From the NCBI GenBank assembly GCA_026014805.1, contig JAOZHR010000026.1, forward strand, positions 1 to 64,000: 64,000 bases of DNA. Reading direction: 5' to 3'. Made by a program: the position numbers and the translations under genes. This document shows positions 308 to 51,054 of this stretch, piece by piece. Within the stretch, counting starts at the first letter, position 1, and each line of letters starts with the position of its first letter. The notes beneath the pieces were generated by a model, which had not been told where the DNA came from, searched no databases, and saw only the letters and a program-made list of their open reading frames with translations. The DNA comes from Candidatus Bathyarchaeota archaeon. Its GTDB lineage: Archaea; Thermoproteota; Bathyarchaeia; Bathyarchaeales; SOJC01.

Positions 308-1231
308 CTAAGATGAAGAAACGATTTTCAAGGGCTCTTCAACCTTCCACAACTCCGAAAAAAGCTTTCCCAAAGCCTTAACGAAAGCCCCGTAATTCGT
401 CCACAAAGCCGCAATTTTCGCCCGCTTCGCTTTTCCGCTATAATTTTCAGGATTTTTTCTAATCGTGAGGAGAAGCTGCTCTTGATCCACCAAAATGAAC
501 GTGGGAACATCTTTAACATCTGAAAGCGCATACCTCATATTCGTCAGCCTTATTTTTTCAATAAAAAAGCGGCTTTTGGGCGAATTACATGTCAGAAGTT
601 TAACATCGAAGTTTTTCTTTGAAAGCTTTTCAAGTTTATCTATAAAACCTGAATGGTATAATCTTGCAAGGTCTTCTTCACAGGCAAGGACGTTGATTTC
701 ACGCTGCGCGTTTTGGATTATTTCGTTTGCCTTGAAATCAATCTGCTCTTCACCTTCAAGTATCTGGAAGACTTCCTTTCTGTTTTGTTTCACTTCAGGA
801 CGGGGAAGAGAGAGCCATATGTTGATTAAGTCTTTCTTCTTCCTTTCTAACCGCTGGATTCTCAGCTTCTTTGCCTCGATAAGAGCATCTATCGCCCGTT
901 CAAAAGGTGTAGCGATGAACTTCAAAGGCTTCTCGAAAACTGATGATACTAAACCTCTTTTTTCCAAGTCTCGCAGTATTCTGTAGGTCTCTGTTCTGTG
1001 GAGAGTAAGTGCCTCAGAAATCTCACTTGCTTTTTGTTCTCTGAAACGAGCAAGATAAACATAAACTCTGATCTCGTTCTTAGACAGACCGAGCTTCTGA
1101 AACATATTCTCAATGAGTTCTATGGATCTAATTGGTCCCTTATCTTTTCTTACAAATTTCCATACCCCAGTGTTTTTGTCATAAAGTTTAGCAACTTTTT
1201 GGGGGCTTTCTACAATTGTTTCCATGAGCAA
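308..1231 (-). CDS. TrmB-family transcriptional regulator
   Basis: This 307-residue protein has a TrmB-type winged helix at about residues 40-110 (LGLSKNEIRVYVYLARF, then a recognition helix with TETYRILRDLEKRGLV), a coiled-coil linker at about 115-150 and a C-terminal region like the TrmB effector domain. TrmB proteins are DNA-binding sensors, often of sugars, that repress or activate transport and metabolic genes. The start is TTG at 1231; an in-frame ATG two codons later (1225) is an equally good choice. It is divergent from lonB at 1470, so the 1232-1469 gap should hold both promoters. The ligand cannot be deduced. Confidence 0.85.
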   Translation of the reverse strand: MLMETIVESPQKVAKLYDKNTGVWKFVRKDKGPIRSIELIENMFQKLGLSKNEIRVYVYLARFREQKASEISEALTLHRTETYRILRDLEKRGLVSSVFEKPLKFIATPFERAIDALIEAKKLRIQRLERKKKDLINIWLSLPRPEVKQNRKEVFQILEGEEQIDFKANEIIQNAQREINVLACEEDLARLYHSGFIDKLEKLSKKNFDVKLLTCNSPKSRFFIEKIRLTNMRYALSDVKDVPTFILVDQEQLLLTIRKNPENYSGKAKRAKIAALWTNYGAFVKALGKLFSELWKVEEPLKIVSSS

Positions 1232-1469: not shown

Positions 1470-3686
1470 GTGGATTATTTCGGAGAAGAAATAGAAACGA
1501 TCCGTGGAAAGAAATGGAACTGGAAAACCTTCAAATCTACCGAAGGCTATCCCGTCTCCGACAACCTTCTTGATTGGGTCATCGGACAAGAACGTGCTTT
1601 GAATGAGTGCTACTTATGCCTTGACGAATGGGTTCACAAACTCAAAAATCTTGAGAAAGAAAAATGGTATGACGCGTGGAAAGACCCTGACAAAGAAAAA
1701 CCAAATGCCACGAAGGCGGCTCCCCCAGGTCCTTACTTACTTCTGCTAGGCGACCCGGGAACTGGAAAGTCTCTTATCGGCAGGGCACTTGCTGCCCATT
1801 TAACTGAGTTATATAAAAAGCATAAAATTCATCTTCAAGATGTTGTTTGTTGGCAAAACAATTTGATTCCCAGCGAACCAAAAATTTCTTGCCACCCTGC
1901 AGGTGAAGGAAAAAAAGTAATCTTTAAGCAAAAATTGAAAGAAACCAAAAAACTTTTTCTCCAAAAAGTGGGAATGAAAGCTCTGATTTATTTGATGATT
2001 ACAGTGGCATCTATCTTCATGTTCGCGGGTTTTTACTATCTATTGCAACAGAAACTACAATGGGATGCCAATGTTGCTAACGCGTTTGGGTTACCAGTTC
2101 AAGAAGTGTATGGAGGTAACTTTGCCACGTACATACTGGACGCCTTCGTTGCCATAGGCACCACTACATTCCTGCCAGCCGGCATGATGCTCATGTTTCT
2201 GATACTAGTAGTTGCTTTAGGACGGTTTGGAATGATGGGAGGCGCAAAAGGTGTTGGGGGAGCTAAGGCTACTAAAGTGCCAAAACTCATAGTGGACAAC
2301 ACCAAGAGAGTTGCACCATTCATTGACGCAACAGGTCATGGTTCGGCACAGTTGTTCGGCAGCATCGCTTGGGACCCGCTGCAGACTGGCGGTTTAGGAA
2401 CACCCGAACATCAAAGGGTGTCGGCAGGCGATGTCCACCGGGCACATACGGGCATCCTCTTCATTGACGAGATTAAAAACTTGAATCCGTCCCAGACAGT
2501 GACTTTGTTAACTGTACTGGAAGATGGACAGTTATCTATTACTTTGAGAAGCCGCTGGGACGAAGGAAATACCGCGGCGATGGCTGTAGCTACCGAACCG
2601 GTGCCATGCATGTGCTTTCTGGTAGGGGCTGGAAACTTTGACAGCATTGGACATGTACACCCTGCTCTTATGGACAGAATCTACGGCTACGGCAAGGTGG
2701 TTAGAATGAACAACGACATGCCCAACACTGTTGAAAATCGAAGGAAATGTGTTCAATTTATCGCTCAAGAAGTTTCACGTTTCCATCTAATACCTTTCAG
2801 CAGAGAAGCATGTGAAGAGATTATAGATGAAGGACGTAGAAGAAGCAACAAAAGAGACGGATTAACGACAAAATTTCGGCCAATGATATCTATAGTGAAA
2901 ACTGCTGCGACCTTAGCTATTAGGGAAGATTGCATAGTTGTTGACAGAAAATATGTGAGGGAAGCTATAGAAAACCATTGCAAAACAATTCAGAAGCAGA
3001 TCCTTGAACACCAAATAAGCGAAAGAGGCAAACTTCTTGACATTAAACCCGAAGGCGCAAGACTTGGCCGAATTTACGGTCTAGCAGTCGTTGCTGATCC
3101 ATACAGCGGTGAAATGACGGGCAACGTATTGACCGTCAAAGGGTTTCTAGAGAAGCGTGACCATGGAAATAATAATCACCTGAAAGGATACTACAAAGTA
3201 ACTGGAATCGCGAAAGGTGGCAAAGAACGGTTTATTACGGACAGCGTCGCAAAAGTCAGAAGTGTCATCTTACAAAAATATGGAGTAGACGTGGCTCAAG
3301 ACTTTTTCACTCACATAGACTTTGCTCAATCTTACGGCGTTGACGGACCAAGCGCCGGCGTTACAATGACCATTCTACTCTGCTCCTTGATAGAAGGAAA
3401 ATCAATCCGTCAAGACGTCGCCGTTACTGGCGAAATTAACGTCGGTGTGGATGGAGAAATACCCGTAACAGCTGTAGGCGGACTTCACGAGAAAATCAAG
3501 GCTGCCGAGGCATGGGGCTTCAGAAAGGTCATGATTCCAGCGAGAAACTATAAACATTCGATAGATCCCAGAGACTACGACATAGAGGTAGTTGCTGGCG
3601 AGACATTGAAAGACTACCTAAAAGAGTGTCTGGCCGATCACCAAAAGCCTTTCAACAATTTTAGAAAAATCGATTTTGGCAAATAA
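1470..3686 (+). CDS. lonB: Membrane-bound archaeal ATP-dependent protease Lon (LonB type)
   Basis: This 738-residue protein has the archaeal LonB layout. A Walker A motif GDPGTGKS lies near residue 94. A membrane insert with two hydrophobic helices at about 170-192 and 233-255 follows. Walker B (LFIDE) is near 331. The C-terminal Lon protease domain carries the catalytic Ser in DGPSAG near 628 and the Lys in GGLHEKIKAA near 675. LonB degrades misfolded and regulatory proteins at the inner face of the membrane. The start is GTG at 1470 with GGGAG just upstream. The family usually has 620-700 residues, so this one is slightly long. It is followed on the same strand, after a 250-base gap, by the small-protein island at 3940-5975. 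Confidence 0.95.
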   Translation: MDYFGEEIETIRGKKWNWKTFKSTEGYPVSDNLLDWVIGQERALNECYLCLDEWVHKLKNLEKEKWYDAWKDPDKEKPNATKAAPPGPYLLLLGDPGTGKSLIGRALAAHLTELYKKHKIHLQDVVCWQNNLIPSEPKISCHPAGEGKKVIFKQKLKETKKLFLQKVGMKALIYLMITVASIFMFAGFYYLLQQKLQWDANVANAFGLPVQEVYGGNFATYILDAFVAIGTTTFLPAGMMLMFLILVVALGRFGMMGGAKGVGGAKATKVPKLIVDNTKRVAPFIDATGHGSAQLFGSIAWDPLQTGGLGTPEHQRVSAGDVHRAHTGILFIDEIKNLNPSQTVTLLTVLEDGQLSITLRSRWDEGNTAAMAVATEPVPCMCFLVGAGNFDSIGHVHPALMDRIYGYGKVVRMNNDMPNTVENRRKCVQFIAQEVSRFHLIPFSREACEEIIDEGRRRSNKRDGLTTKFRPMISIVKTAATLAIREDCIVVDRKYVREAIENHCKTIQKQILEHQISERGKLLDIKPEGARLGRIYGLAVVADPYSGEMTGNVLTVKGFLEKRDHGNNNHLKGYYKVTGIAKGGKERFITDSVAKVRSVILQKYGVDVAQDFFTHIDFAQSYGVDGPSAGVTMTILLCSLIEGKSIRQDVAVTGEINVGVDGEIPVTAVGGLHEKIKAAEAWGFRKVMIPARNYKHSIDPRDYDIEVVAGETLKDYLKECLADHQKPFNNFRKIDFGK

Positions 3687-3939: not shown

Positions 3940-4593
3940 ATGGCAGAAGAACTGGAAGAGAAATCGAAAGAAAGCCAAAGTGAAAATGTTCCATGGCAGC
4001 CACTTCCTCAAGACGATGCTTATTTTCCATATACAAGCCAACCACAAAACGAAGCAGCAGCAGAGGTAGAAGAAAGCATGGACACAAAAGAAAAGCATAA
4101 AGAGATTAGGAGCAAGTTTAACGAGTTTATGAAAGCAATAAGTGAAGAGACTTCGCAGCTAACTGATTTCGTTTTGGAGGAGAAAAAACTGATAAAAGAA
4201 CTCTGCAGTCTTTTAACTCAAATCCTGAAAAATCTTAAGATTTCCTTTAACATCCATCCAGATTGCATATCAAAGCTAAGGGGAGCCAGACAAATCAAAT
4301 TTAACAAGGAAGGATACTTAACGATAATTAGAAACGACGATAACGTGGACTCGAAACTTCTGGAAGATTATCCCCCAGACACGATCTTGGCAGTCATGAT
4401 GGTCATCATTCCAGAGCTTGAAAAGGCAATCAAAACCTACCGAAAGAACATAAGCCAGAGAGTTAACCTTCTAGAGAAAATCAAACACGAACTAAAAAAT
4501 CTGCAAAAAGCGGTCTCGCCAGACGAGAAAGAACCCTCTGAAATGCTTCAAGATGAAGAATTAAGAAACCCTGTGATAGCAAGCGAGGGCTAG
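3940..4593 (+). CDS. Helical acidic protein, paralogue of the gene at 8978 (function unknown)
   Basis: I do not recognise this 217-residue protein as a named family. The first 45 residues are acidic, Gln/Pro-rich and probably disordered. Residues about 55-200 are mostly helical, with EEKKLIKELCSLL, a short beta-like centre (KEGYLTIIRNDDN) and a long amphipathic helix at the end. The order and spacing match the protein at 8978-9499, which has EEKRLVAVFFESLSKL, PTGHLIILHGDG and an equivalent final helix. They look like distant paralogues. The start has a good GGTGAT ribosome site six bases upstream of ATG. It heads a same-strand run of three small genes facing the VWA/AAA+ pair, which suggests a role as a partner of that ATPase. 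Confidence 0.75.
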   Translation: MAEELEEKSKESQSENVPWQPLPQDDAYFPYTSQPQNEAAAEVEESMDTKEKHKEIRSKFNEFMKAISEETSQLTDFVLEEKKLIKELCSLLTQILKNLKISFNIHPDCISKLRGARQIKFNKEGYLTIIRNDDNVDSKLLEDYPPDTILAVMMVIIPELEKAIKTYRKNISQRVNLLEKIKHELKNLQKAVSPDEKEPSEMLQDEELRNPVIASEG

Positions 4594-4623
4594 AAACTCT
4601 TAACTACGTTTTTGGTGTAGAAG

Positions 4624-5172
4624 TTGGGAAATGTTGTTACAGAGATACGCAGTTTCTATTCAATAAAAGAAATAAACGAATTTCTAGAAGAAGACATAGA
4701 GCAATATAAATTAATGGTAGAAGAATACAGCCAATGGCTTGGCTCTTTCCTGCGAGATTCAGAAGACGTGCAGGAAAACAAAGAATGGGCTAAAAAAATG
4801 GCGGCACTACAAAAGGCGAAACCGAAAGGAAAAGCTAAGACAACAAAAAAGAAGGGCAAATCAAAAAAGACAAAATCGTCAACTAATGGTTGGATTCAGT
4901 TCAGGGAAATCGTTCTCAGTGCATCTGAGCAGAGTGAAGCTGAGATTCTCTTTGAGGCTATAGAAGAAATCAATGGAAAAATAGGGCGACTAGAAAAGGT
5001 AAGGGACTCTATAATAGAGCTGGAAAAATCCAGACTTGGCAAAGGTATAATATACATAATTTACATTTGTAATGGTGTTCCAGAGAAAATCGTTCTCCGC
5101 CATAAGGAAGACCAGGAATTTGAAAAGAAGTTTCAATATATAGCTGATTTTTCTATCCTGAAAGAAACGTAG
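4624..5172 (+). CDS. Coiled-coil protein with central Lys-rich linker (function unknown)
   Basis: This 182-residue protein of no recognised family has an N-terminal helical segment (about 1-60), a strongly basic low-complexity linker at about 62-86 (KAKPKGKAKTTKKKGKSKK), and a second helical part with a predicted coiled coil at about 95-145. It ends in a short beta-like segment, GIIYIIYICNG. The basic linker could bind nucleic acid or an acidic partner; the flanking paralogue-type protein is acidic. The start is TTG at 4624, supported by GGTG six bases upstream. It lies 30 bases after the preceding gene, so the two are probably co-transcribed. Confidence 0.65.
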   Translation: MGNVVTEIRSFYSIKEINEFLEEDIEQYKLMVEEYSQWLGSFLRDSEDVQENKEWAKKMAALQKAKPKGKAKTTKKKGKSKKTKSSTNGWIQFREIVLSASEQSEAEILFEAIEEINGKIGRLEKVRDSIIELEKSRLGKGIIYIIYICNGVPEKIVLRHKEDQEFEKKFQYIADFSILKET

Positions 5173-5291
5173 AAGGTTAAATTATCGAGCTGCTTTGTGT
5201 GTAGCAGAAATTTACACACAAAGTAAAAACTGTTGAGGGCCAATGGTGATTGTTTACTGAGTATCTATAAAATCCACTGAATAATGGGGTC

Positions 5292-5975
5292 TTGAATATT
5301 TGCCCGTCAAATAGTTCGCTAGCTGTTGCAGTCAGAGTAAAAATTCACAGTTTGCTAGGGGTTAGACTGGCGGAGAACGTCGGAAGTGGAGAGATAGTCA
5401 GCTTTGACGTCAATGCGCGAATGGAAGAGAGTGAGCGGCGAATTGGGCAGATTAGTGTGACTTTTGCCTTAAAAGTAGGGACTAAACCGAGCATAGTGAA
5501 GTATGAAGTGGACGGGGTAGCTATGCTTGAGGGTAAAGATGAAGAAATTAAAAAAATGCTAGAAGTAAATCCTGAGACGCAGATTCCCTTCGTGTTTCAA
5601 AGAGTGTACCAAAATGTCTTCATGTCTATGTATTTGTTAGCCACTTTGATTGATGCACCTTATCCCCCATCAAATTTGCTTCATTCGAGTCAACAGCCAA
5701 TGCCTATAGCACAGATCAGTGCAAGTATTGCAGCCACTACAGCTACAGAAGAGAAAACTATGCAGACAGTAGTCGCGGCGCCAAGAGAAGAGAGGACTTT
5801 GCAGCAGCCCCCGACAAACACGGCACCGCAAGAAAGGACAGCTGCACAGCCGGCTATGGTGCCACGAGAAGAGACGACAACACCTATAAAAGAGCAAAAA
5901 GTTGGAGCTACTGCAGAAGCTCAACAAAGTAATTTAACGCAGCGGGATAGAGAGGAGCAAGCTCCAGAAACGTAA
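5292..5975 (+). CDS. SecB-like domain protein with long disordered tail
   Basis: Residues about 5-130 of this 227-residue protein show alternating beta strands (VAVRVKIHSLLGVRL, RIGQISVTFALKVG, SIVKYEVDGVAML). A helix-then-Pro pattern follows, IPFVFQRVYQNVF ... DAPYPPSNLLH. This order resembles the SecB chaperone fold, where strands precede the helix ending in a PP-x-N motif. SecB-like proteins are known in some archaea. Residues about 135-227 are a Gln/Thr/Ala/Glu-rich tail with repeated PREE/PQE units, probably disordered. The start is TTG at 5292. The stop lies only seven bases from the stop of the convergent VWA gene. The SecB assignment is an inference from pattern, not from a search. 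Confidence 0.55.
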   Translation: MNICPSNSSLAVAVRVKIHSLLGVRLAENVGSGEIVSFDVNARMEESERRIGQISVTFALKVGTKPSIVKYEVDGVAMLEGKDEEIKKMLEVNPETQIPFVFQRVYQNVFMSMYLLATLIDAPYPPSNLLHSSQQPMPIAQISASIAATTATEEKTMQTVVAAPREERTLQQPPTNTAPQERTAAQPAMVPREETTTPIKEQKVGATAEAQQSNLTQRDREEQAPET

Positions 5976-5982
5976 ATTTCTT

Positions 5983-7701
5983 CTAGGTTTCGAGTGCAGC
6001 TGCTGAGGCTTTCATGTAAATTTTTGAGAATTTCTTTATGAGGTCTTTTTGGCTGTAGACAGCGCTACTTATTTTGAAGAAGTTCTTCATTCTTTCGCTT
6101 TCCAAGCCAACTCCTATTACTATTACGCCTTTCTTCTCTAGTGAGCTGATGCTCTTTGACAGTACACTTGATATGTTCGGATAACCGTATGGCCATCCAT
6201 CAGAGAAAACTATCAAGAATCTTTGCTCGTCAAATCTACGCGCAAGGATTTCTCCTGCAACTTGAATAGCATCAGGCATGTACGTTAAGCCACTGAATTT
6301 TAGTCCCCCAATTCTTGCGCGTACTCTGCGAGAATACGCCTCTGAAGAATCCTTTAATATGTAGAAACGATCGCTGAAGGCAAAGAAAGACCAGGAATTT
6401 GGGTCCATCAGGAGTTCTTTTGTAGCTTCCGCAACGCATATAGCCAGTGCTCGACCAAGCTCGCCCTTAATTTTCATGCTTGCACTTGCGTCATAGAGAA
6501 TTCCCCAAGCAAAACTTCTGCTCAAATATTCATTCTCCATGAAAACGTCTGTTCTCGGACTCCTGCTTGCAATCTTTTGGATAACTTCAGTGAGGTCTAA
6601 TTGTCCTTGTTCTTTTCTAGGGTCTTCGTCTAGAGCGTCCATGGCAACTCTAAGACTGTCCAAGAGTCGTCGACTCCCCCCCTTAAGAAGAATTCTAGCC
6701 CTCAGATATTTAGTATAATCTTCATTTGGAAAACTGGCAGATTTGAATCTCGTCCCCAGTATGTATTTCTCGATTCTCGCCAGTATTTTCTGTTCTCGAG
6801 TTTTTTGATGCACCCACGAGTCGAAAGCTTGCAGAGCCTCTGCGTTTGTTTCTTTTTTCCAGTATGACTCAATTGGTCCTTTGGATAGATGTATTCCTCC
6901 TAAAGTTTCCAGAGATTTTTTGAAGATTTGTTCAATTTTAATCTCATATGGTATCTCGTGTTGAGAGAATACAGTGCATGGCCCAATTTGTTCAGTATGT
7001 GGTAGGGAAGGAGCTTCCAAGATAGGTCCATGGGATTCGAGAATCTGGGTTATGTCATTTGCAGTTTCGTTAAAAGCTTCGCTGATTTTAGCTTCTTTTC
7101 CAGCCAACGATACAGCAATTTTTTCTTCGAGCGAACTCAGTCTGGTAGTCAACTGGTTGACTGTGTCTTCTTCTTCTGGACAGAGTATCCCTTTTATAAT
7201 GCCCATGTTAATCTTTGACAGCAAAGCTGCCATTATTCGAGTGGCTGAATTGAAGATTCTTTCAGCAGACTTCATTTTTATAAAGGCAAAAGAATTTGCG
7301 AAAGCCAAGTCGACGAGCTTGTCTTGATGCCTTGCTGAAATATAGGTTTTGACGTAAGCATCATGGACTAGAGTTTCGGAGAAAGATTCGACGAGTGTGC
7401 GTTTTGATGTTGATGCAACTGCATTTTCATCGTCAATTGGCAGTAAAGTATGAACAGTCAAATGGGAAACACAGGCTCTGAATAATCTTCCAACTTTGAC
7501 TTTTCCAGAGTTTTCTTGAAATTCGTATCCTAAGAAAGATATGTGTCCATCTTTTGATATGGAAGGTGCGGGCAAAGCTATGTTGAAGCCGGCGTCATCC
7601 CAAGTGAGAGTTGGTTGCTGAAGTTTTGAGTCTAAGTTGATTCTTGTTTTCTTGTTATCTTTTTGAAGGGAGACGTCCCAGGCATAATCGAGGAACCCCA
7701 T
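5983..7701 (-). CDS. VWA-domain protein, NorD/CbbO-like partner of the adjacent AAA+ ATPase
   Basis: This 572-residue protein has a helical N-terminal two thirds of no recognised family and a C-terminal von Willebrand A domain at about 390-560. The metal site (MIDAS) looks intact: DASAS near residue 402, a Thr in SGLTYMPDA, and an Asp in VFSDGWP. In the CbbQ-CbbO and NorQ-NorD systems a VWA protein of this layout recruits a MoxR-type AAA+ ring to a target enzyme for remodelling or metal insertion. The ATG at 7701 has GGTAATC upstream on its strand. It follows the AAA+ gene by 33 bases, so they form an operon. No rubisco, NO reductase or gas vesicle genes lie nearby, so the target is unknown. 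Confidence 0.8.
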   Translation of the reverse strand: MGFLDYAWDVSLQKDNKKTRINLDSKLQQPTLTWDDAGFNIALPAPSISKDGHISFLGYEFQENSGKVKVGRLFRACVSHLTVHTLLPIDDENAVASTSKRTLVESFSETLVHDAYVKTYISARHQDKLVDLAFANSFAFIKMKSAERIFNSATRIMAALLSKINMGIIKGILCPEEEDTVNQLTTRLSSLEEKIAVSLAGKEAKISEAFNETANDITQILESHGPILEAPSLPHTEQIGPCTVFSQHEIPYEIKIEQIFKKSLETLGGIHLSKGPIESYWKKETNAEALQAFDSWVHQKTREQKILARIEKYILGTRFKSASFPNEDYTKYLRARILLKGGSRRLLDSLRVAMDALDEDPRKEQGQLDLTEVIQKIASRSPRTDVFMENEYLSRSFAWGILYDASASMKIKGELGRALAICVAEATKELLMDPNSWSFFAFSDRFYILKDSSEAYSRRVRARIGGLKFSGLTYMPDAIQVAGEILARRFDEQRFLIVFSDGWPYGYPNISSVLSKSISSLEKKGVIVIGVGLESERMKNFFKISSAVYSQKDLIKKFSKIYMKASAAALET

Positions 7702-7734
7702 GTAGATTACCGCATGTTGGGATATAATTCTAAA

Positions 7735-8760
7735 TCATTTTGGTTTAGGAAAAACTGATTCGATGACTCTTCTAATATCGTCTTGCACTTCAGTATTATC
7801 ACTGGTCAATGCAATTATGGTTTCTTCAGCAGCTACATTAGGAGTGTTGCCGTCGTAAATGAGAGTAGCCCAGTTTATCAGATCACCTAGAGATGGTCCG
7901 TAAGGGACGTCTCCTGCCTTGTATTGTCTACGTAACTCGGCGCCAACTTGAACGATTTTATAAGCCACATCTTCGCTAATTTTAGAGCGTTTCAGAAGCA
8001 TATTTACTTCGAGGGGTGAAATTTTGTCGCCAACGCTTGTATAGCCGAAGTTTATCCATACAGCCAAGCGTCTTCTCATAGCCGCGTTCAACGGTTTGGT
8101 TCCTGCAAACTCTGCTGAATAAGGGTTCATGCTGATGATTAAGTATCCATATTTGTGTCTGTCCACAACTTCGTTGTCTTTCTCGTTCAGCACAAGATGA
8201 CCTCGAGTGTCAAGAACTGGATTAAGCCGTGTAGCAACATCTTGCTTCATCATGTTGGCCTCGTCGAGGTACATTATTCCCCCCGCTCTTAGCCATCTAG
8301 TAACCATTCCGTCGATCCAGTTCTCTTTTCCAAGGCCAATAAAGCGCCCAATTAAGTCATATGAAGATGTTTGAAGGCCGCAGTTGACTTCCCAAACTGG
8401 CAATCCGCAGAGTTCTGCCACTAGATAAACGATGTGAGTTTTTCCAGTTCCCGATGGTCCTATGAGAGAGCATTGTTTGAAGTAGTAGAGTGCACGGACG
8501 ATGCGTTCCACGTAGCGTTGTCCACTGTCAATGTATTCAGGAGTGTTCTTAGGAATCATGTCAGCAAGATGAGCAAAGCTATAGTTGGGATGAAGGTCAT
8601 ATTTTTGGATTTCATATTTGTGGTAAAGGGGAGACTGGGACATGGAGCGTTCTCTGTTTATGGACACTGTTATTTTGTAGTTGCCCCGTCGAATAGAGGT
8701 AACTCTTTGAATTCGGCTAGTTTCCTCTGCCTTTCTTAGACCTTGGTGTCCATATCCCAA
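7735..8760 (-). CDS. MoxR-type AAA+ ATPase, CbbQ/GvpN/NorQ subfamily
   Basis: This 341-residue AAA+ protein has Walker A GPSGTGKT near residue 100, Walker B GGIMYLDEAN near 160, sensor 1 ISMNP, and an arginine-finger region NAAMRRRL. The segment WIDGMVTRWLRAGGIMYLDE is characteristic of the CbbQ/GvpN/NorQ branch. Members form rings that, with a VWA partner, remodel protein complexes. The start is uncertain. TTG at 8760 gives the full length, but a TATA-like box at 8777-8785 would start transcripts close to that codon. ATG at 8643 is the alternative, trimming 39 poorly conserved residues. It is transcribed ahead of the VWA gene and is divergent from the helical gene at 8978. Confidence 0.88.
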   Translation of the reverse strand: MGYGHQGLRKAEETSRIQRVTSIRRGNYKITVSINRERSMSQSPLYHKYEIQKYDLHPNYSFAHLADMIPKNTPEYIDSGQRYVERIVRALYYFKQCSLIGPSGTGKTHIVYLVAELCGLPVWEVNCGLQTSSYDLIGRFIGLGKENWIDGMVTRWLRAGGIMYLDEANMMKQDVATRLNPVLDTRGHLVLNEKDNEVVDRHKYGYLIISMNPYSAEFAGTKPLNAAMRRRLAVWINFGYTSVGDKISPLEVNMLLKRSKISEDVAYKIVQVGAELRRQYKAGDVPYGPSLGDLINWATLIYDGNTPNVAAEETIIALTSDNTEVQDDIRRVIESVFPKPK

Positions 8761-8776
8761 AACAGCTTCGCCTCAA

Positions 8777-8786
8777 TGATATATAG
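8777..8786 (-). promoter_or_regulatory. TATA-box-like element for the AAA+/VWA operon
   Basis: On the minus strand this reads CTATATATCA, an archaeal TATA-box-like sequence. Transcription would start about 25 bases further on, near 8755, so the message is either nearly leaderless from TTG 8760 or has a leader to ATG 8643. Confidence 0.4.
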
Positions 8787-8977
8787 AGATGGCGGACGGG
8801 ATATAAATATTACGTACTACGACTTGCGATACGCTATTCTTATCTCAAACTTCGAACAACATACCTTGAACGCGTTCAGTTTGAGATCTCTTAAATAATT
8901 AGTGTATGTAAAGAGACGCAACATACAAGGGCTTTTAGCAATCTACCCGTGAGAAGCTAAGTAAGGAAATGCTCCTT

Positions 8978-9499
8978 ATGAGTCAAGAAGGTAGTCCACC
9001 ACAAGAAATAGCACAATTACCGTTCCAAGAAGAACAGAAGAAGACTAAGCAGGTTCAAATATCCCTTCAGGAACTCCTTGATTCACTAAAAAGTGTAAAA
9101 GATGATATTGGTCAAATCTGCGAATTAACTTCTGAAGAGAAAAGGCTCGTAGCGGTATTCTTCGAATCATTGTCAAAACTTATGCAACCACTCGCAGCAA
9201 CGATGTCAATTTCCCCAACAGCGCTTCCGGAAGGAATAGGGAATGTGGTTCAGGCAAACATAGATCCCACTGGCCATCTCATAATTTTACATGGGGATGG
9301 GAAAATGGAATTAAAGGACTTGAGTGAAGAGGCGAATCGTGATCTTATGATCAGTGTTATCAAAGATGTGATGCCGAAGTTCAAGCAACTCTCTGATGCT
9401 TACAAGCAAAGAATCGAAGATAGGATTAGATTCCTATCATCGGTCACTAGGGAGCTGCAAAAGATATCTAAGGCGTTCTCAACAGCGACCGCTCAGTGA
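8978..9499 (+). CDS. Helical protein, paralogue of the gene at 3940 (function unknown)
   Basis: This protein has about 173 residues from ATG 8978; ATG 8969 is in frame, but the AGGA ribosome site at 8964-8967 sits too close to it. The family is unrecognised. It has EEKRLVAVFFESLSKL, a central beta-like hairpin (PTGHLIILHGDGKMEL), then SVIKDVMPKFKQL and a final amphipathic helix. This is the same order as in the 3940-4593 protein, but with a shorter leader and no acidic tail. It is divergently transcribed from the AAA+/VWA operon across a 200-base region; CTTAAATAATTA at about 8891-8902 is a possible TATA box. The paralogue pair flanking the ATPase operon suggests two interchangeable or complementary partners. 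Confidence 0.75.
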   Translation: MSQEGSPPQEIAQLPFQEEQKKTKQVQISLQELLDSLKSVKDDIGQICELTSEEKRLVAVFFESLSKLMQPLAATMSISPTALPEGIGNVVQANIDPTGHLIILHGDGKMELKDLSEEANRDLMISVIKDVMPKFKQLSDAYKQRIEDRIRFLSSVTRELQKISKAFSTATAQ

Positions 9500-12990: not shown

Positions 12991-13539
12991 ATGGGTCGAG
13001 TGTTTAACAAGTCTGTAAAGATGATGATTCTGACGCTGATATCTTTGCTCGTTATCTCTGCAAGCGCAGCCGTCTATTACTCGTTGGAAATGACATCAAC
13101 TATCACCACTGCCGCAAACGATGTATACTTTGCGAAAGGTCCAGATAATTCCACTGCAGGAGTAAACCTCTTCAATGACAACAAGAGTGCAACGCTAACT
13201 CAGCTCATAGCTTATCCGAACATGACCATGACTTACGATGATGCAATCAGGGTGAGGAACAACCACACAAGTACGAACTACAACGTTAGGTTAACGCCTG
13301 TTTCGCTGTCTGGCAGTGCTGCATACTTTGTGTACATCAACTTTACGTTGCAGACCTCTACTACGATATCATTGAATTATACGTCAGATGGATCTAGCTG
13401 GACCACGCCTTCAGCAACCAGTTTCACACAGGTTATTGCAGACACAGAATATGCGATCGTTATTCAAACAATGGCAAACGCGACTGCGACATCTGGTCAA
13501 ACTGCAACAATCGAGATGGCTATTGATATTGAGCAATAA
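12991..13539 (+). CDS. Secreted beta-rich protein, possible filament subunit
   Basis: This 182-residue protein has an N-terminal hydrophobic segment at about 10-28 (MMILTLISLLVISASAAVYY). A Thr/Asn/Ser-rich beta-strand domain with several N-glycosylation sequons follows. The AAVYYSLEM region after the hydrophobic core resembles the GSAYYSLLM region of the next gene, so both may share a processing or assembly signal. The ribosome site AAGGAGGTGA, five bases upstream of ATG, is near-perfect and implies high expression. A T-run at 13549-13557 just downstream is a likely terminator. A subunit of a TasA-like or AbpA-like surface filament is a reasonable guess, not shown by a motif. Confidence 0.7.
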   Translation: MGRVFNKSVKMMILTLISLLVISASAAVYYSLEMTSTITTAANDVYFAKGPDNSTAGVNLFNDNKSATLTQLIAYPNMTMTYDDAIRVRNNHTSTNYNVRLTPVSLSGSAAYFVYINFTLQTSTTISLNYTSDGSSWTTPSATSFTQVIADTEYAIVIQTMANATATSGQTATIEMAIDIEQ

Positions 13540-13540
13540 T

Positions 13541-13558
13541 CTCCCCTCTTTTTTTTTC
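13541..13558 (+). terminator. Poly-T transcription terminator
   Basis: A CTCCCCTC segment followed by nine T residues lies two bases past the stop of the abundant-looking secreted protein. It fits an archaeal oligo-T terminator that would let the small subunit be made in excess over the 490-residue protein downstream. Confidence 0.5.
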
Positions 13559-13580
13559 TAATCCTTGGAGGAGAGTATCC

Positions 13581-15053
13581 GTGAGTAGGGTAAAGGTAAG
13601 TCTAGATCATAAAAGGATTCGACGTTTGGTTTGGTTAGTGTTAACTGTCTTGGCTTTGTTTGGTTACGCGCTGCAGAGTGCGGTGGGAAGCGCGTACTAT
13701 TCTCTGTTGATGCAAGCTTATATGACGATTAGTTCCCCGCCTATTATTCTTCAAGAAGGTACGGCTGGCACAAGCACAATCTACACGAACTCGACCAGTG
13801 CAAAGGTCAGTGTATCGGGCTATGGCTACGATTTTGTTGACAACAATGACACTGATGTGGATTTAAGTGCAAACAAAGGGACTCATAGCAATTTTACAGC
13901 TCAGAAATACGGTCCAGACTTGATTAATGACACTCTAACGGAAGAAAATACGTTTAGTGGTAGTGATTCAATATGGCTTTATGTTAACGCCGATGATGAG
14001 AGCAAGACTGACTGGACAAGGGTCGGAACGAATCCTTATCTTGACGCCATTGATTATTCTACCAATTATGTCAATACGAGTTCCAAACTCGCAGAAGTTG
14101 GCGATTTCGGTTTTCCTAATTCAGGGAAGTCAACTGAAACAATTAATTCTGTTTACATTCAAATTTACGGTCAATGCGAGTCTGCAAACAAAGCAATAGA
14201 CGTTTACATCTGGGATGGGTCAACATGGACATTAGTCGATACAGTTATATTTACAGTTTCTTGGTCATGGCAACAAATAGATATTTCAACAACTCTTAAC
14301 ACTTGGACAAAGATTGATGCTGCAAAAATGTACCTTAAAACACCCAACTTTGCAGCGTTATACGAGGTTGACAGTGCAAGACTTGAAATTGATTATACGT
14401 TAGGGCCAAGTTATGAATTAGACTTGGAGGTTCAATGGACATCCGTAGACTACACAAGAACATACGAGGAATTATGCATAAAAACTGGAACGTTCAGTGG
14501 CTCAGAAGACATTATGGTATATGCGTGGAACGTTTCTACGTCAGATTGGCATTTTCTTTACAATTTAACAACAAGTAGCTGGAATAATGTTTCAGTAACG
14601 GATTGGCTCAATAACGAAAATTTTACGGCAAGATTTCTGGGTGGAACAGAAAGCAGCGATACAAATCAAGACAGTTGGAACATAGATGCAAACCTTTTAC
14701 ACGTTTGGACAGAAAACTATGATTACGTCCTCAGAGTAAACAACACCGTTACAGATTCTTGGCAGATTAGGCTAAAGAAATACGCTGACTCCAACATTAA
14801 CCGTTTGCAAAATTGCACCATCTACTTCCACAACTCGTCAGATGGCACTTCACGCCAAATCTACATCCAGAACGGAGCTTACATCAACCAAACTGGACCA
14901 TGGTATGATCTAGGTGACTCGGAAACCATCTACATAGCCATGAAGGTAGAAGCAAACAGCACAGGAACATCATATGTTTATGTATTTCTTGAAATCCTTA
15001 CCCCAAGCATTACGACATACGCTCAATACATCATAACATTCGAAATAACCTAA
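13581..15053 (+). CDS. Large secreted beta-rich surface protein
   Basis: This 490-residue protein starts at GTG 13581 behind a strong GGAGGAG site. It has a basic N-terminus, a hydrophobic helix at about 15-38 and then the GSAYYSLLM region shared with the preceding protein. The rest is Thr/Ser/Asn-rich beta structure with many N-glycosylation sequons. Residues about 125-270 form a jelly-roll-like domain whose pattern (TETINSVYIQIYG, VYIWDGSTWTLVD, KIDAAKMYLKT) recurs near the N-terminus of the dockerin protein at 47674. The last 100 residues resemble the domain of the 182-residue neighbour. It looks like an adhesin or tip component assembled with that smaller protein. Confidence 0.75.
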   Translation: MSRVKVSLDHKRIRRLVWLVLTVLALFGYALQSAVGSAYYSLLMQAYMTISSPPIILQEGTAGTSTIYTNSTSAKVSVSGYGYDFVDNNDTDVDLSANKGTHSNFTAQKYGPDLINDTLTEENTFSGSDSIWLYVNADDESKTDWTRVGTNPYLDAIDYSTNYVNTSSKLAEVGDFGFPNSGKSTETINSVYIQIYGQCESANKAIDVYIWDGSTWTLVDTVIFTVSWSWQQIDISTTLNTWTKIDAAKMYLKTPNFAALYEVDSARLEIDYTLGPSYELDLEVQWTSVDYTRTYEELCIKTGTFSGSEDIMVYAWNVSTSDWHFLYNLTTSSWNNVSVTDWLNNENFTARFLGGTESSDTNQDSWNIDANLLHVWTENYDYVLRVNNTVTDSWQIRLKKYADSNINRLQNCTIYFHNSSDGTSRQIYIQNGAYINQTGPWYDLGDSETIYIAMKVEANSTGTSYVYVFLEILTPSITTYAQYIITFEIT

Positions 15054-15139
15054 ATGCTCACTACACTACAGATTTGCCCTAAGGATTTTACCATCATTAA
15101 ACCTATAACCAACCAAGCCTCAAAAGAAAGGTGACAAAA

Positions 15140-15526
15140 ATGCTTCCATACGACGCAGCCTTCTACGTGCCTTTCGCAGTAATTACCCTAACCTTAACAC
15201 TATACTTCACACTTCTTATGAAACTCAAACCATCCACAGAAATAAAGCTGTCAAAATACATGAGAAAAATTACTCCCAAAGAAGCGCCTAAAAAAGCCCA
15301 AAAGGCCCTAAAACCTCAAAAACCTGCAACACCAACCAAACTCCCAACAGAGAATAAAGTCGAAGAGAAAGAATGCCCTCATTACGTGGGCTACCTAACA
15401 ACATTGCTTAAAGGCAGTCCTTTTCCAGATGAATGCTTCGGATGCCGCAAAGTCATACAATGCCTAAGAATTGAACCTACGAAAGTCATTGAAAGCTTCT
15501 ATTTGCAGGCAACCGAGGCAGAATAG
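15140..15526 (+). CDS. Membrane-anchored Cys-motif protein
   Basis: From ATG 15140 this is about 128 residues. GTG at 15131 is in frame, but AGGTGA overlaps it and is spaced for the ATG. One transmembrane helix at about 8-30 is followed by a basic Lys/Pro/Ala-rich linker and a C-terminal domain with four Cys (ECPHYVGYL, then DECFGCRKVIQC). The Cys cluster could bind zinc or a metal on the cytoplasmic side. No named family is recognised. It closes the surface-protein operon, 77 bases after the 490-residue gene. Confidence 0.65.
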   Translation: MLPYDAAFYVPFAVITLTLTLYFTLLMKLKPSTEIKLSKYMRKITPKEAPKKAQKALKPQKPATPTKLPTENKVEEKECPHYVGYLTTLLKGSPFPDECFGCRKVIQCLRIEPTKVIESFYLQATEAE

Positions 15527-47556: not shown

Positions 47557-47673
47557 TACAGTCGCATCACGTATTCCGCGTCTGAGAATTGACTGTCCTC
47601 ATTCACCAACAAATAGAACCTTCTTTCAGAAATGATAATAGTGTTTAAGGCATATTGTATTTGGGGAGAAAGT

Positions 47674-50600
47674 GTGAAAGGAGTAGTTTCGTCGCTCATA
47701 CTGACTTTGCTGATTTGCAATGCCATGTTGGCAATTGGTTTTCAATCGAATAAGGCTTCTGAGGCTGTTTATGTCAACGCTGAGAGAAGGGCTGACTCAT
47801 TTAGGAACCCAACGCAACGCGATAGAGACACGTACACCTTTGTGGACAAAACTCACGATCCAGTTTGGATTGAAAGAGACAATCTACACGCGACCCGAGG
47901 AATTTGGAATAGAGATGAGCAGCAGGAAGCCCAGAAAAAATGTTGGGTAAACTACTTCGACAACACCGAAAATGGGAGTTGGGTATTCACCGGTGACAGC
48001 CCTTACTTGCATAATGACACAGACGGTTACATAACGTCCATGGGAGCGGGCAACTGCTCATGGTTCCAATTCCAAGATACAAGCCTGACAACCCTGCAAA
48101 CTGTGTATCTAATGATTGAATGGAAAACTCGCCACATAATGTCCACCGAAGAAACCAAGCTTTACTTGGACAATGGTACATCCTATGTAGATTTAGGGTC
48201 TTTCAATCTAACCTTGGAGTACAGGTGGACGAAAATCAACATAACCAGCACACTAGATACAATTTCAAAAGTCAACGATGCGAAACTGAAAATTGTATCG
48301 CTTTCTGCTGGTTTTTATCTTGTTGCTGTGCGTAGAGCATACTTGAGAATCTATAACGGTCCAGTCCCACTGCAGACGGGCACAGCGACGTATGGTAAAG
48401 TAGGTGGTCAAGTAATGTTGTCTGTGAAATGGACCGACCCTGACGGATTGAGCGGTTACGCTTTGTACCATAACGCAAGCGGAAACTGGATTGCCCAAAC
48501 AGGCGCCTTAGAAGGAATAGAAGCTTGGAGTAATCACACGATAACACTGCAAAATGATGCGGCTTCTGTTTTGGGTTACAGATTTTGGGCGAACGACACA
48601 GACAACAATTGGGAACCGGCGGAGGTTTTGTTTGTTTACCCTGTGAAGAACTTCAGTCCTGACCTACTGCAATATTTAGAGGACATTAGCGGTTCGCCAA
48701 TAGCACATAGTTATGGCAGAAAAGATTTTTATGACAGCGTAACTGGAAGATTCTGGAAGTTCTATAGCGACGGAACAAACATCAAGTACTCATCAACCGA
48801 AGATGGACAAACGTGGAACTCTTCGCAAACAATAAGGATCGGCGATAGTGGCTTTCAGTTTTACGTTCATGGCTTCAACGGAACAATACACTATTTATAC
48901 AACTCTGAAAGGACAAGCGACAACATATATTATCGAAGGGGAGTCTTAAATTCTAATGGCGCAATAACTTGGAGCGCGTCAGAACAAGTTGCGGTTGATG
49001 CTGGTACATCACAAAGATTTTATGCTTGCTCGGTCGTTACAGACACGGACGGTTATCCATACCTTGTTTTCGGCAATCGAACAGACCCAAATTCAAAGAC
49101 ACTAAACTTAGTCAAAAGTAACCATAACAATGGAACTTGGCAGACGGCAAGCGGGTTTCCAAAGCAAATCAACGAAAACCCAGACGACGATTTAGTATCT
49201 GGAGTTGCCTTAAGCTTGCCGGATAACAAAATCTACATAATTTACTGTAGTGCAGGAAACGAGGAGCCACCTATGGGAAGACTATGGCAAAACCCTACTT
49301 TAGGACCTTTAGAAAACGCCTCAGACTACACAATGTCAAGCAATTACCATTTCAGCGCTGTCTCCGACAGTTATGGACACGTCCACATTGTTTATCGGAG
49401 AACAAACAATAGGGTTGAATATAGTTTCCGCAACTACACAACAGAAGCGTGGGAGACTAAAGACGAGTTTGTTACGTCTCACCTAACAAGCGAATCTCTA
49501 AGCAGTGCTGTTTATTCGTGGCCAGTGATATGTTGGAACCCAGATTTAGAAGAAATCTACGTGCATTGGTGGACATTGGAAGACAAGAGTGCTTGGCTAA
49601 AGATAAGGAACTCTACTGCATGGGAGCAGAGACGAAGAATCATAAGGTTAAACAGAAATATCACATTGATTGACGGCGATGTTATAGTACCACAATCGCA
49701 TCAAAACAAAATTTTACTCAATTTCGTAGGACAGAACGTGGTAGACGAACAAAAGGCGATTTGGGCTTACTTATACACCAACAAACCTCCCATGGCAAGT
49801 TTTACTGAATCCGCAGAAACAGTCTACACCGGGGAAATCATCGCCTTTAATGCGAGCGAGAGTTTTGACCCGGATGGAACAATTGTTTATTACTTCTGGA
49901 ACTTCGGTGACGAAACAAACGCTACCGGAGTAATTACGGAACACGCGTATGCTGACGACGGCAACTACACAGTCACTTTGACCGTTACTGATGACGATGA
50001 AGAAACTGACTCTGCCCTCGCCATTAAGACTGTCTTAAACCGTCCTCCTCTTGCCTTGTTCACCGAGTCTGCTGAAACTGTTTACACCGACGAATTTATC
50101 ACTTTCAACGCGACTGAGAGCTATGACCCTGACGGTGTTATAGTTTCATATCTCTGGAATTTCGGCGATGGCAGCAACGCTACAGAAGCCGTGATAGAAC
50201 ACGCTTATGCTGACAACGCCAACTACACAGTAACACTTAGGGTAACGGATGACGATGAAGCAACAACCACAGTTGCTTCAACTAAAATAGTTCTGAATAG
50301 ACCTCCAGTCGCCATTTTCACGGAATCAGCTGAGAGTGTGCTCACGGGCGAGATTATCCATTTTAATGCCTCAGACAGTTACGATCCAGATGGTTTCATT
50401 GCTCTCTACTTTTGGGGTTTTGGTGACGACGCCAATGCTACTGGAGTAACAGTTGACCTTGCTTACATTGATATTGGTAATTACACAGTTACCTTGACGG
50501 TTACTGATAATGATGGAACAACACACGTGGCAATGTCAACTAAAATAGTTTTACGCCGCGATATAGCTGTCTTGACTGTTGTACCCTGCAAGACAATAGT

Positions 50601-51054
50601 TGGAATAGGATTTAACATCAGCATAGACCTTACGATTGAAAATCAAGGCAACTTCACAGAGAACTTCAACGTAACTGTTTACGCCAACTCCATCGTAATT
50701 GGAATACTACAAGTAACATTAAACGCGGGAAACAACCAAACCTTAGCATTCACGTGGGACACAACAGGCCTTGTTTACAGCAACTACACTATAAGCGCCA
50801 CGGCAGACACCGTTCCAGGCGAAATCGACACGACTGACAACACAATGGTTGATGGCTGGGTCCTTGTAACTATTCCTGGCGATGTTGATGGAGACCGAGA
50901 CGTAGACATCTACGATATCGTCCGTATGGCTGGCATCTATGGCGTATCAAAACCAAACCCACAATACGACCCCAACTGCGACATAGACGGCGACGGAGAC
51001 ATAGATATTTTTGATATAGTGGCTGCATCTGGAAACTACGGAGAAAGTTGGTAG
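47674..51054 (+). CDS. Secreted multidomain protein: Asp-box propeller, three PKD domains, CARDB and dockerin
   Basis: GTG 47674 with GGAG upstream gives about 1126 residues and a clean signal peptide (VKGVVSSLILTLLICNAMLA). The frame is open from 47632. A jelly-roll-like domain (about 95-245) resembles that of the 490-residue protein at 13581. A beta-propeller-like region (about 335-700) has an Asp-box STEDGQTW, as in sialidases. Three PKD domains (about 705-960), each with FDPDG or YDPDG and NYTVTL, are followed by a CARDB-like domain and a C-terminal dockerin with two calcium loops. It may act on or bind glycans and dock to a cell-surface cohesin. The dockerin is nearly identical to that at 35.1 kb. 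Confidence 0.88.
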   Translation: MKGVVSSLILTLLICNAMLAIGFQSNKASEAVYVNAERRADSFRNPTQRDRDTYTFVDKTHDPVWIERDNLHATRGIWNRDEQQEAQKKCWVNYFDNTENGSWVFTGDSPYLHNDTDGYITSMGAGNCSWFQFQDTSLTTLQTVYLMIEWKTRHIMSTEETKLYLDNGTSYVDLGSFNLTLEYRWTKINITSTLDTISKVNDAKLKIVSLSAGFYLVAVRRAYLRIYNGPVPLQTGTATYGKVGGQVMLSVKWTDPDGLSGYALYHNASGNWIAQTGALEGIEAWSNHTITLQNDAASVLGYRFWANDTDNNWEPAEVLFVYPVKNFSPDLLQYLEDISGSPIAHSYGRKDFYDSVTGRFWKFYSDGTNIKYSSTEDGQTWNSSQTIRIGDSGFQFYVHGFNGTIHYLYNSERTSDNIYYRRGVLNSNGAITWSASEQVAVDAGTSQRFYACSVVTDTDGYPYLVFGNRTDPNSKTLNLVKSNHNNGTWQTASGFPKQINENPDDDLVSGVALSLPDNKIYIIYCSAGNEEPPMGRLWQNPTLGPLENASDYTMSSNYHFSAVSDSYGHVHIVYRRTNNRVEYSFRNYTTEAWETKDEFVTSHLTSESLSSAVYSWPVICWNPDLEEIYVHWWTLEDKSAWLKIRNSTAWEQRRRIIRLNRNITLIDGDVIVPQSHQNKILLNFVGQNVVDEQKAIWAYLYTNKPPMASFTESAETVYTGEIIAFNASESFDPDGTIVYYFWNFGDETNATGVITEHAYADDGNYTVTLTVTDDDEETDSALAIKTVLNRPPLALFTESAETVYTDEFITFNATESYDPDGVIVSYLWNFGDGSNATEAVIEHAYADNANYTVTLRVTDDDEATTTVASTKIVLNRPPVAIFTESAESVLTGEIIHFNASDSYDPDGFIALYFWGFGDDANATGVTVDLAYIDIGNYTVTLTVTDNDGTTHVAMSTKIVLRRDIAVLTVVPCKTIVGIGFNISIDLTIENQGNFTENFNVTVYANSIVIGILQVTLNAGNNQTLAFTWDTTGLVYSNYTISATADTVPGEIDTTDNTMVDGWVLVTIPGDVDGDRDVDIYDIVRMAGIYGVSKPNPQYDPNCDIDGDGDIDIFDIVAASGNYGESW

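Follow-up and report, generated by a model that had tools for sequence, protein, structure and literature searches.

A NorQ/NorD-like AAA+/VWA gene module of Bathyarchaeia and ammonia-oxidising archaea, probably an accessory of one type of archaeal type IV pilus

The closest described relatives of the gene pair studied here are NorQ and NorD, in which a MoxR-type AAA+ ATPase with a CbbQ_C domain likewise goes with a protein carrying a C-terminal VWA domain and a metal-ion-dependent adhesion site (MIDAS) (PMC9976466, PMC13036017). In the NorQD complex a finger of the VWA protein reaches into the AAA pore; the MIDAS has been proposed as the site of target binding, and ATP use twists a linker (PMC9976466, PMC13036017). 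CbbQ of the rubisco activase CbbQ/CbbO and GvpN of gas vesicles are AAA+ proteins of the same group, and the AAA modules of Midasin (Rea1/Mdn1), which also works with a VWA/MIDAS domain, are distant relatives. According to Makarova, Koonin and Albers (2016, PMC4858521), a pair of vWA protein (arCOG02900) and GvpN-like ATPase (arCOG00441) associates strongly with the subclade 4A pilus loci of thaumarchaea. Here we describe an AAA/VWA pair in a stretch of 64,000 nucleotides, referred to below as the window, which is the start of contig C26 (JAOZHR010000026.1) in a Candidatus Bathyarchaeota genome of 1.79 Mb and 32 contigs. Together with three partner families, here called H, K and S, the pair forms a conserved module, which is very probably tied to one archaeal type IV pilus type, T4P-A. 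Compared with NorQ/NorD, no nitric oxide reductase adjoins the genes, the linked client is a pilus, and H, K and S are extra partners.

An earlier note, made from the letters of the window, had listed the open reading frames (ORFs) of this region, and all of them were found where it had placed them. The frames of the gene set are kept over about 40 related loci, so chance ORFs are excluded. The genes are as follows.

308..1231, minus strand: TrmB-like transcription regulator (PF01978, E=7e-16); it adjoins the module and the pilus operon, and is kept
1470..3686, plus strand: LonB-type membrane protease (Lon_C, E=2e-17; LonB_AAA-LID), judged a bystander
3940..4593, plus strand: H1, helical, the first of two family H copies (homology to H2, E=3e-11)
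4624..5172, plus strand: K, Lys-rich coiled-coil protein, full-length in 69 of 151 genomes
5292..5975, plus strand: S, protein of predicted SecB fold (AlphaFold2 model and Foldseek) with a disordered tail
5983..7701, minus strand: putative VWA-domain adaptor with an intact MIDAS (D404xS406xS408 ... T/S ... D501) by alignment, and NorD likeness
7735..8760, minus strand: MoxR-type AAA+ ATPase of the CbbQ/NorQ/GvpN group (AAA_5 and CbbQ_C)
8969..9499, plus strand: H2, helical, the other family H copy, in divergent orientation to the AAA gene

The AAA protein matched Pfam AAA_5 with 74 bits and the CbbQ_C lid domain (PF08406) with 49.3 bits, against a cut-off of 20.6. Its core is complete, with Walker A, Walker B, sensor 1 and arginine finger; GPSGTGKT (Walker A), LDEAN (Walker B), N212 and R229-R231 are invariant in the AAA alignment. 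Among solved structures, the best single-domain scores fell to a CbbQ/NirQ/NorQ-domain protein (92 bits), NorQ (90 and 82 bits) and CbbQ (86 bits). Midasin had the top whole-chain score, a sum over repeated modules, and was rejected as the closest relative since its best single module reached 53 bits against 92 for CbbQ. The GvpN equivalog model was missed, with 37.6 bits against a cut-off of 266.8. For the VWA protein, Pfam VWA_2 gave E=8e-5, which is under the cut-off. Its MIDAS (DxSxS-T-D) could nevertheless be read from the alignment, in which D404, S406, S408 and D501 are invariant and the T/S lies in a GLTY motif, and NorD was its best solved relative (E=1.2e-7, over the C-terminal domain). 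By sequence, the pair is thus NorQ/NorD-like. The two genes lie on the same strand with a gap of 33 bases, and AAA stands beside VWA at every fetched bathyarchaeal locus, which, with the Pfam domains, bears out the earlier proposal of an operon of a CbbQ/NorQ/GvpN-type AAA+ gene and its VWA partner. That neither rubisco, nitric oxide reductase nor a gas vesicle gene adjoins them also holds: no such client occurred in the neighbourhoods (rubisco was not searched for genome-wide), and no GvpA or other gas-vesicle protein was found in the window's genome. A gas-vesicle system was rejected on the latter result and because the sole sampled relative with GvpA, G007, has no module; in that genome a cluster of GvpA-type genes lies on G007:C66.

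The conservation of the module was assessed in 151 genomes of the order with alignments of VWA, K, H and S. Because K and S both have short general paralogues, only full-length matches with E 1e-40 or better were counted as K, and matches with E below 1e-14 as S. VWA was found in 71 genomes, in single copy besides contig-split pieces and one weak extra match, and family H in 76. All four proteins were present in 61 genomes and all four missing in 67. VWA and H shared 70 genomes, leaving 1 and 6 unshared (p=1e-34), while VWA and K shared 66, leaving 5 and 3 (p=1e-32). We also read the neighbourhoods of 40 loci with a mechanical ORF caller and hidden Markov models (HMMs) built from the loci. At most bathyarchaeal loci an H2-type gene and the AAA gene point away from each other; K occupies the VWA side or the far side of H, in many cases accompanied by S and a second H. 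H, K, S, VWA and AAA are therefore a real conserved unit, and the genes keep company across Bathyarchaeia and relatives, as the earlier note had suggested; it had named separate occurrence of the AAA/VWA pair as what would speak against this, and such separation was not the pattern found. A TrmB HMM family stands beside the module at 24 loci and recurs in the pilus loci of ammonia oxidisers. A scan of named genomes with the VWA alignment returned relatives only from Bathyarchaeota and one further archaeon, a restriction due to its peptide patterns, which came from the bathyarchaeal alignment.

Clustering of the neighbouring genes revealed a recurrent operon beside the module, in the order c6, c6, c7, c8, c9, c10, c11, c14, c12. 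According to Pfam, c6 has an archaeal type IV pilin N-terminus (Pilin_N, E=0.001, under the cut-off), c9 is a T2SSE ATPase (E=7e-36) and c10 is a T2SSF protein, i.e. TadC (E=1e-17). At least one family of this pilus operon lay in the fetched 20 kb at 19 of 39 loci, and two or more at 15. The gene order in G025, the sister genome, is pilus operon, TrmB, LonB, H, K, S, VWA, AAA and H, with the complete pilus operon directly next to TrmB, and the window's genome has a matching pilus operon on contig C28, which is 6.1 kb long. For these two reasons the left end of the window is most likely an assembly break between module and pilus, and the start of the window at a contig end is why the earlier note missed the pilus as client. 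Chemotaxis genes (CheY, CheD, CheC, CheR) were found near the module at seven loci. At L048 to L053, from one bathyarchaeal group, the module adjoins such chemotaxis genes, mostly with no pilus genes in the fetched stretch.

The tie to one pilus type was followed through TadC, for which the search separated two classes, TadC-A (540 bits and more, with one truncated copy counted) and the others. Module presence was defined here as VWA or K, and the lists of genomes and genera were compiled by hand from tables. The module occurred in 68 of the 71 genomes with TadC-A, in 4 of the 48 with only another TadC, and in 2 of the 32 without TadC. Within a single genus of 28 sampled genomes, 9 had module and TadC-A, 1 the module only and 18 neither (p=1e-6); four smaller mixed genera were fully concordant, with both or neither in every genome (4/4, 2/4, 2/2 and 2/2). 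Since module and TadC-A come and go together within genera, shared descent alone does not explain the association, and we regard the tie to T4P-A with high confidence.

Outside the order, a phylum-wide search with the VWA alignment found full relatives in families f17 and f49. Archaeal AmoA was present in 9 of 9 tested genomes of these relatives, which are therefore ammonia oxidisers. Their HMM E-values against the bathyarchaeal proteins were near 1e-160 for AAA and near 1e-80 for VWA, which suggests that the pairs of both groups are orthologous, and in f17 and f49 full-length K and VWA occur in the same genomes. The f17 loci hold everything in one block: TrmB, K, H, minor pilins, S, AAA, VWA, pilin, ATPase, TadC, a large secreted protein and prepilin peptidase. 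Most ammonia-oxidiser loci include pilin, ATPase and TadC; in G349 (f49), H, K, S, AAA and VWA stand together with a pilin-like gene, and there was no ATPase in the stretch fetched. The AAA/VWA pair is thus found inside a type IV pilus locus in ammonia oxidisers as well as at bathyarchaeal loci. With respect to both the kind of gene pair and the pilus context, the ammonia-oxidiser loci fit the description of the thaumarchaeal vWA/GvpN pair, a link to archaeal type IV pili published in 2016 (PMC4858521), so that the statement that no named system has this composition is not supported. In the passages of that paper on the pair, the two proteins are treated as regulators, no H, K or S partners are named and no Bathyarchaeota are covered. 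H, K and S are likewise absent from the passages on archaeal pili compared in PMC4858521 and PMC7554672. New, then, are the partners H, K and S, the form of the system seen in Bathyarchaeia and the strict tie to one pilus type.

None of H, K and S matched a Pfam or NCBIfam family, and H and K also had no named family in a PDB search. H1 and H2, proposed earlier as two paralogous helical proteins, are indeed homologous, with 22% identity over 152 amino acids and a joint HMM family over 43 proteins; H and K were also compared as one family, with a negative result. In some Bathyarchaeia the H domain also starts a protein of 530-600 amino acids with a long coiled-coil tail, away from pilus genes (L104:4459-6054, L105:4386-5972, L106:2697-4307, L110:3189-4880, L111:3753-5558). 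The K model predicts a long helical hairpin with a small beta sheet. K', a short K paralogue of about 142 amino acids, shares an operon with a type IV pilin, one more small protein and a protein of weak Roadblock/LC7 likeness (L102:4061-4501 on G000:C21, L219, L221, L224 and L226). In several genomes its neighbours are the ATPase and TadC that belong to a second type of pilus, T4P-B, and it was near a secretion ATPase at 3 of 7 further archaeal loci. Because K' adjoins this second pilus locus, K-type proteins look like pilus parts.

The AlphaFold2 model of S has four strands and two helices, with pLDDT (the model's per-residue confidence) >85 in the core. In a Foldseek search of PDB, the first 19 matches were all SecB or the SecB-like Rv1957 (E=5e-5, probability 1.00, TM on target ~0.4-0.58). 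S did not match Pfam SecB (PF02556), and profile-profile comparison (hhalign) with seven SecB sequences gave no match, at a probability of 0.3%. A true SecB was accordingly rejected, and of the earlier term SecB-like the predicted fold remains, which S has in common with SecB/Rv1957, while membership of the sequence family does not. SecA is not present in archaea (PMC4361572). Most Bathyarchaeia, those without the pilus module included, encode a general S paralogue of about 140 amino acids, itself without a Pfam family, within a ribosomal cluster close to S19, S24e and Rpb7-like genes (L103:4011-4556, at G000:C14:19574-19936; L109:3354-3779; L113:3330-3758). S looks like a pilus-dedicated copy of this general protein, by a step of dedication that we infer.

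Taken together, we consider it probable that H, K, S, VWA and AAA, with the TrmB regulator, are a cytoplasmic accessory module of the T4P-A machine, in which an ATP-driven remodeller works with a chaperone set. In analogy to NorQ/NorD, the AAA ring would pull or twist through the VWA adaptor, whose MIDAS may grip a component of the pilus machine, such as the platform, the assembly ATPase or a pilin complex. Since the module tracks T4P-A, the target of the pair would belong to it, and we favour its platform or an assembly intermediate. The gripped component would be remodelled, and assembly thereby licensed or its state changed. On balance we lean slightly towards such remodelling of a pilus component by the pair. 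S, with its SecB fold, may act as a holdase through which hydrophobic prepilins or minor pilins stay soluble, although the holding of pilins is a tentative part of the proposal, and H and K would be adaptor or scaffold proteins.

Several observations weigh against this proposal. No pilus gene family lay in the fetched stretch at 20 of the 39 loci. VWA and full-length K are both missing from three TadC-A genomes, of which two belong to one genus, and six module-bearing genomes, several of them incomplete, have no TadC-A match. The one pointer to a holdase function of S is its predicted fold, and the best match of the K fold to known structures, archaeal prefoldin, was not significant (E=0.7).

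The most serious rival, which we think unlikely enough to rank behind the accessory role, is that the pair controls expression or activity of the pilus in the way ArnA/ArnB do for the archaellum, without handling any pilus protein, and that H, K and S are signalling partners of TrmB. Regulation was proposed for the vWA/GvpN pair in the main text of PMC4858521, and TrmB regulators flanking the module and the chemotaxis genes adjoining it at seven loci agree with it. However, a MoxR motor and a SecB-fold protein are parts of the remodelling type and not of transcription control, and the K paralogue beside the ATPase/TadC pair of T4P-B fits a machine part better.

Archaea have no PilT, yet Aap pili of Sulfolobus retract (PMC11178785), so an extra ATPase strictly tied to one pilus type is a candidate for a second, non-PilT motor that disassembles or retracts T4P-A filaments or switches machine states. 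The AAA/VWA ring with H, K and S would then replace PilT in disassembly, retraction or switching, S and K catching the returning pilins. We consider this improbable, both as to the motor and as to the replacement of PilT by the whole set, because the retracting Aap pilus is described, in the part of PMC11178785 concerned with it, with a five-gene operon without such a pair, and the MoxR/VWA systems described to date serve in cofactor insertion or enzyme reactivation.

The earlier note had combined adaptor, holdase, remodeller and protease into a general protein-handling system feeding LonB. LonB does adjoin the module in the window and in several relatives from its family, f1, with TrmB on one side and H1 or K on the other. 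In other families and in ammonia oxidisers it was not adjacent to the module at the loci compared; 253 bases separate it from H1, and the module follows the pilus instead. It is also the sole LonB of the genome and therefore likely housekeeping, a bystander. The protease thus drops out and the LonB-feeding system, largely refuted by gene neighbourhoods, is very unlikely, while a NorQ/CbbQ-like remodeller with a SecB-fold partner survives from it. That the five genes are chance neighbours or a phylogenetic echo can be dismissed, for despite the relatedness of the genomes and the lack of pilus genes near about half of the loci, Bathyarchaeia and ammonia oxidisers both retain the set, in differing gene orders, and it is gained and lost jointly within genera.

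With the accessory-module reading, an orphan MoxR/VWA pair acquires a client, and three families that carry no Pfam or NCBIfam name join the parts list of one archaeal type IV pilus, which Bathyarchaeia and ammonia-oxidising archaea have in common. PMC7554672 reports four pilus types for ammonia oxidisers and comparable diversity in Bathyarchaeota. The reading also suggests that organisms lacking SecA can have a SecB-fold protein reserved for a pilus locus. Finally, it names genes through which cultivated ammonia oxidisers could be used to ask how archaea build or move their pili without PilT.

Elsewhere in the window, positions 12991-15526 hold a row of Ser/Thr-rich proteins, secreted or anchored in the membrane, that have hydrophobic segments at their N-termini, and small secreted proteins resembling them adjoin the second pilus locus at L224. 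Positions 47632-51054 encode a surface protein of 1140 amino acids that contains PKD repeats and weakly matches dockerin type I at its C-terminus.

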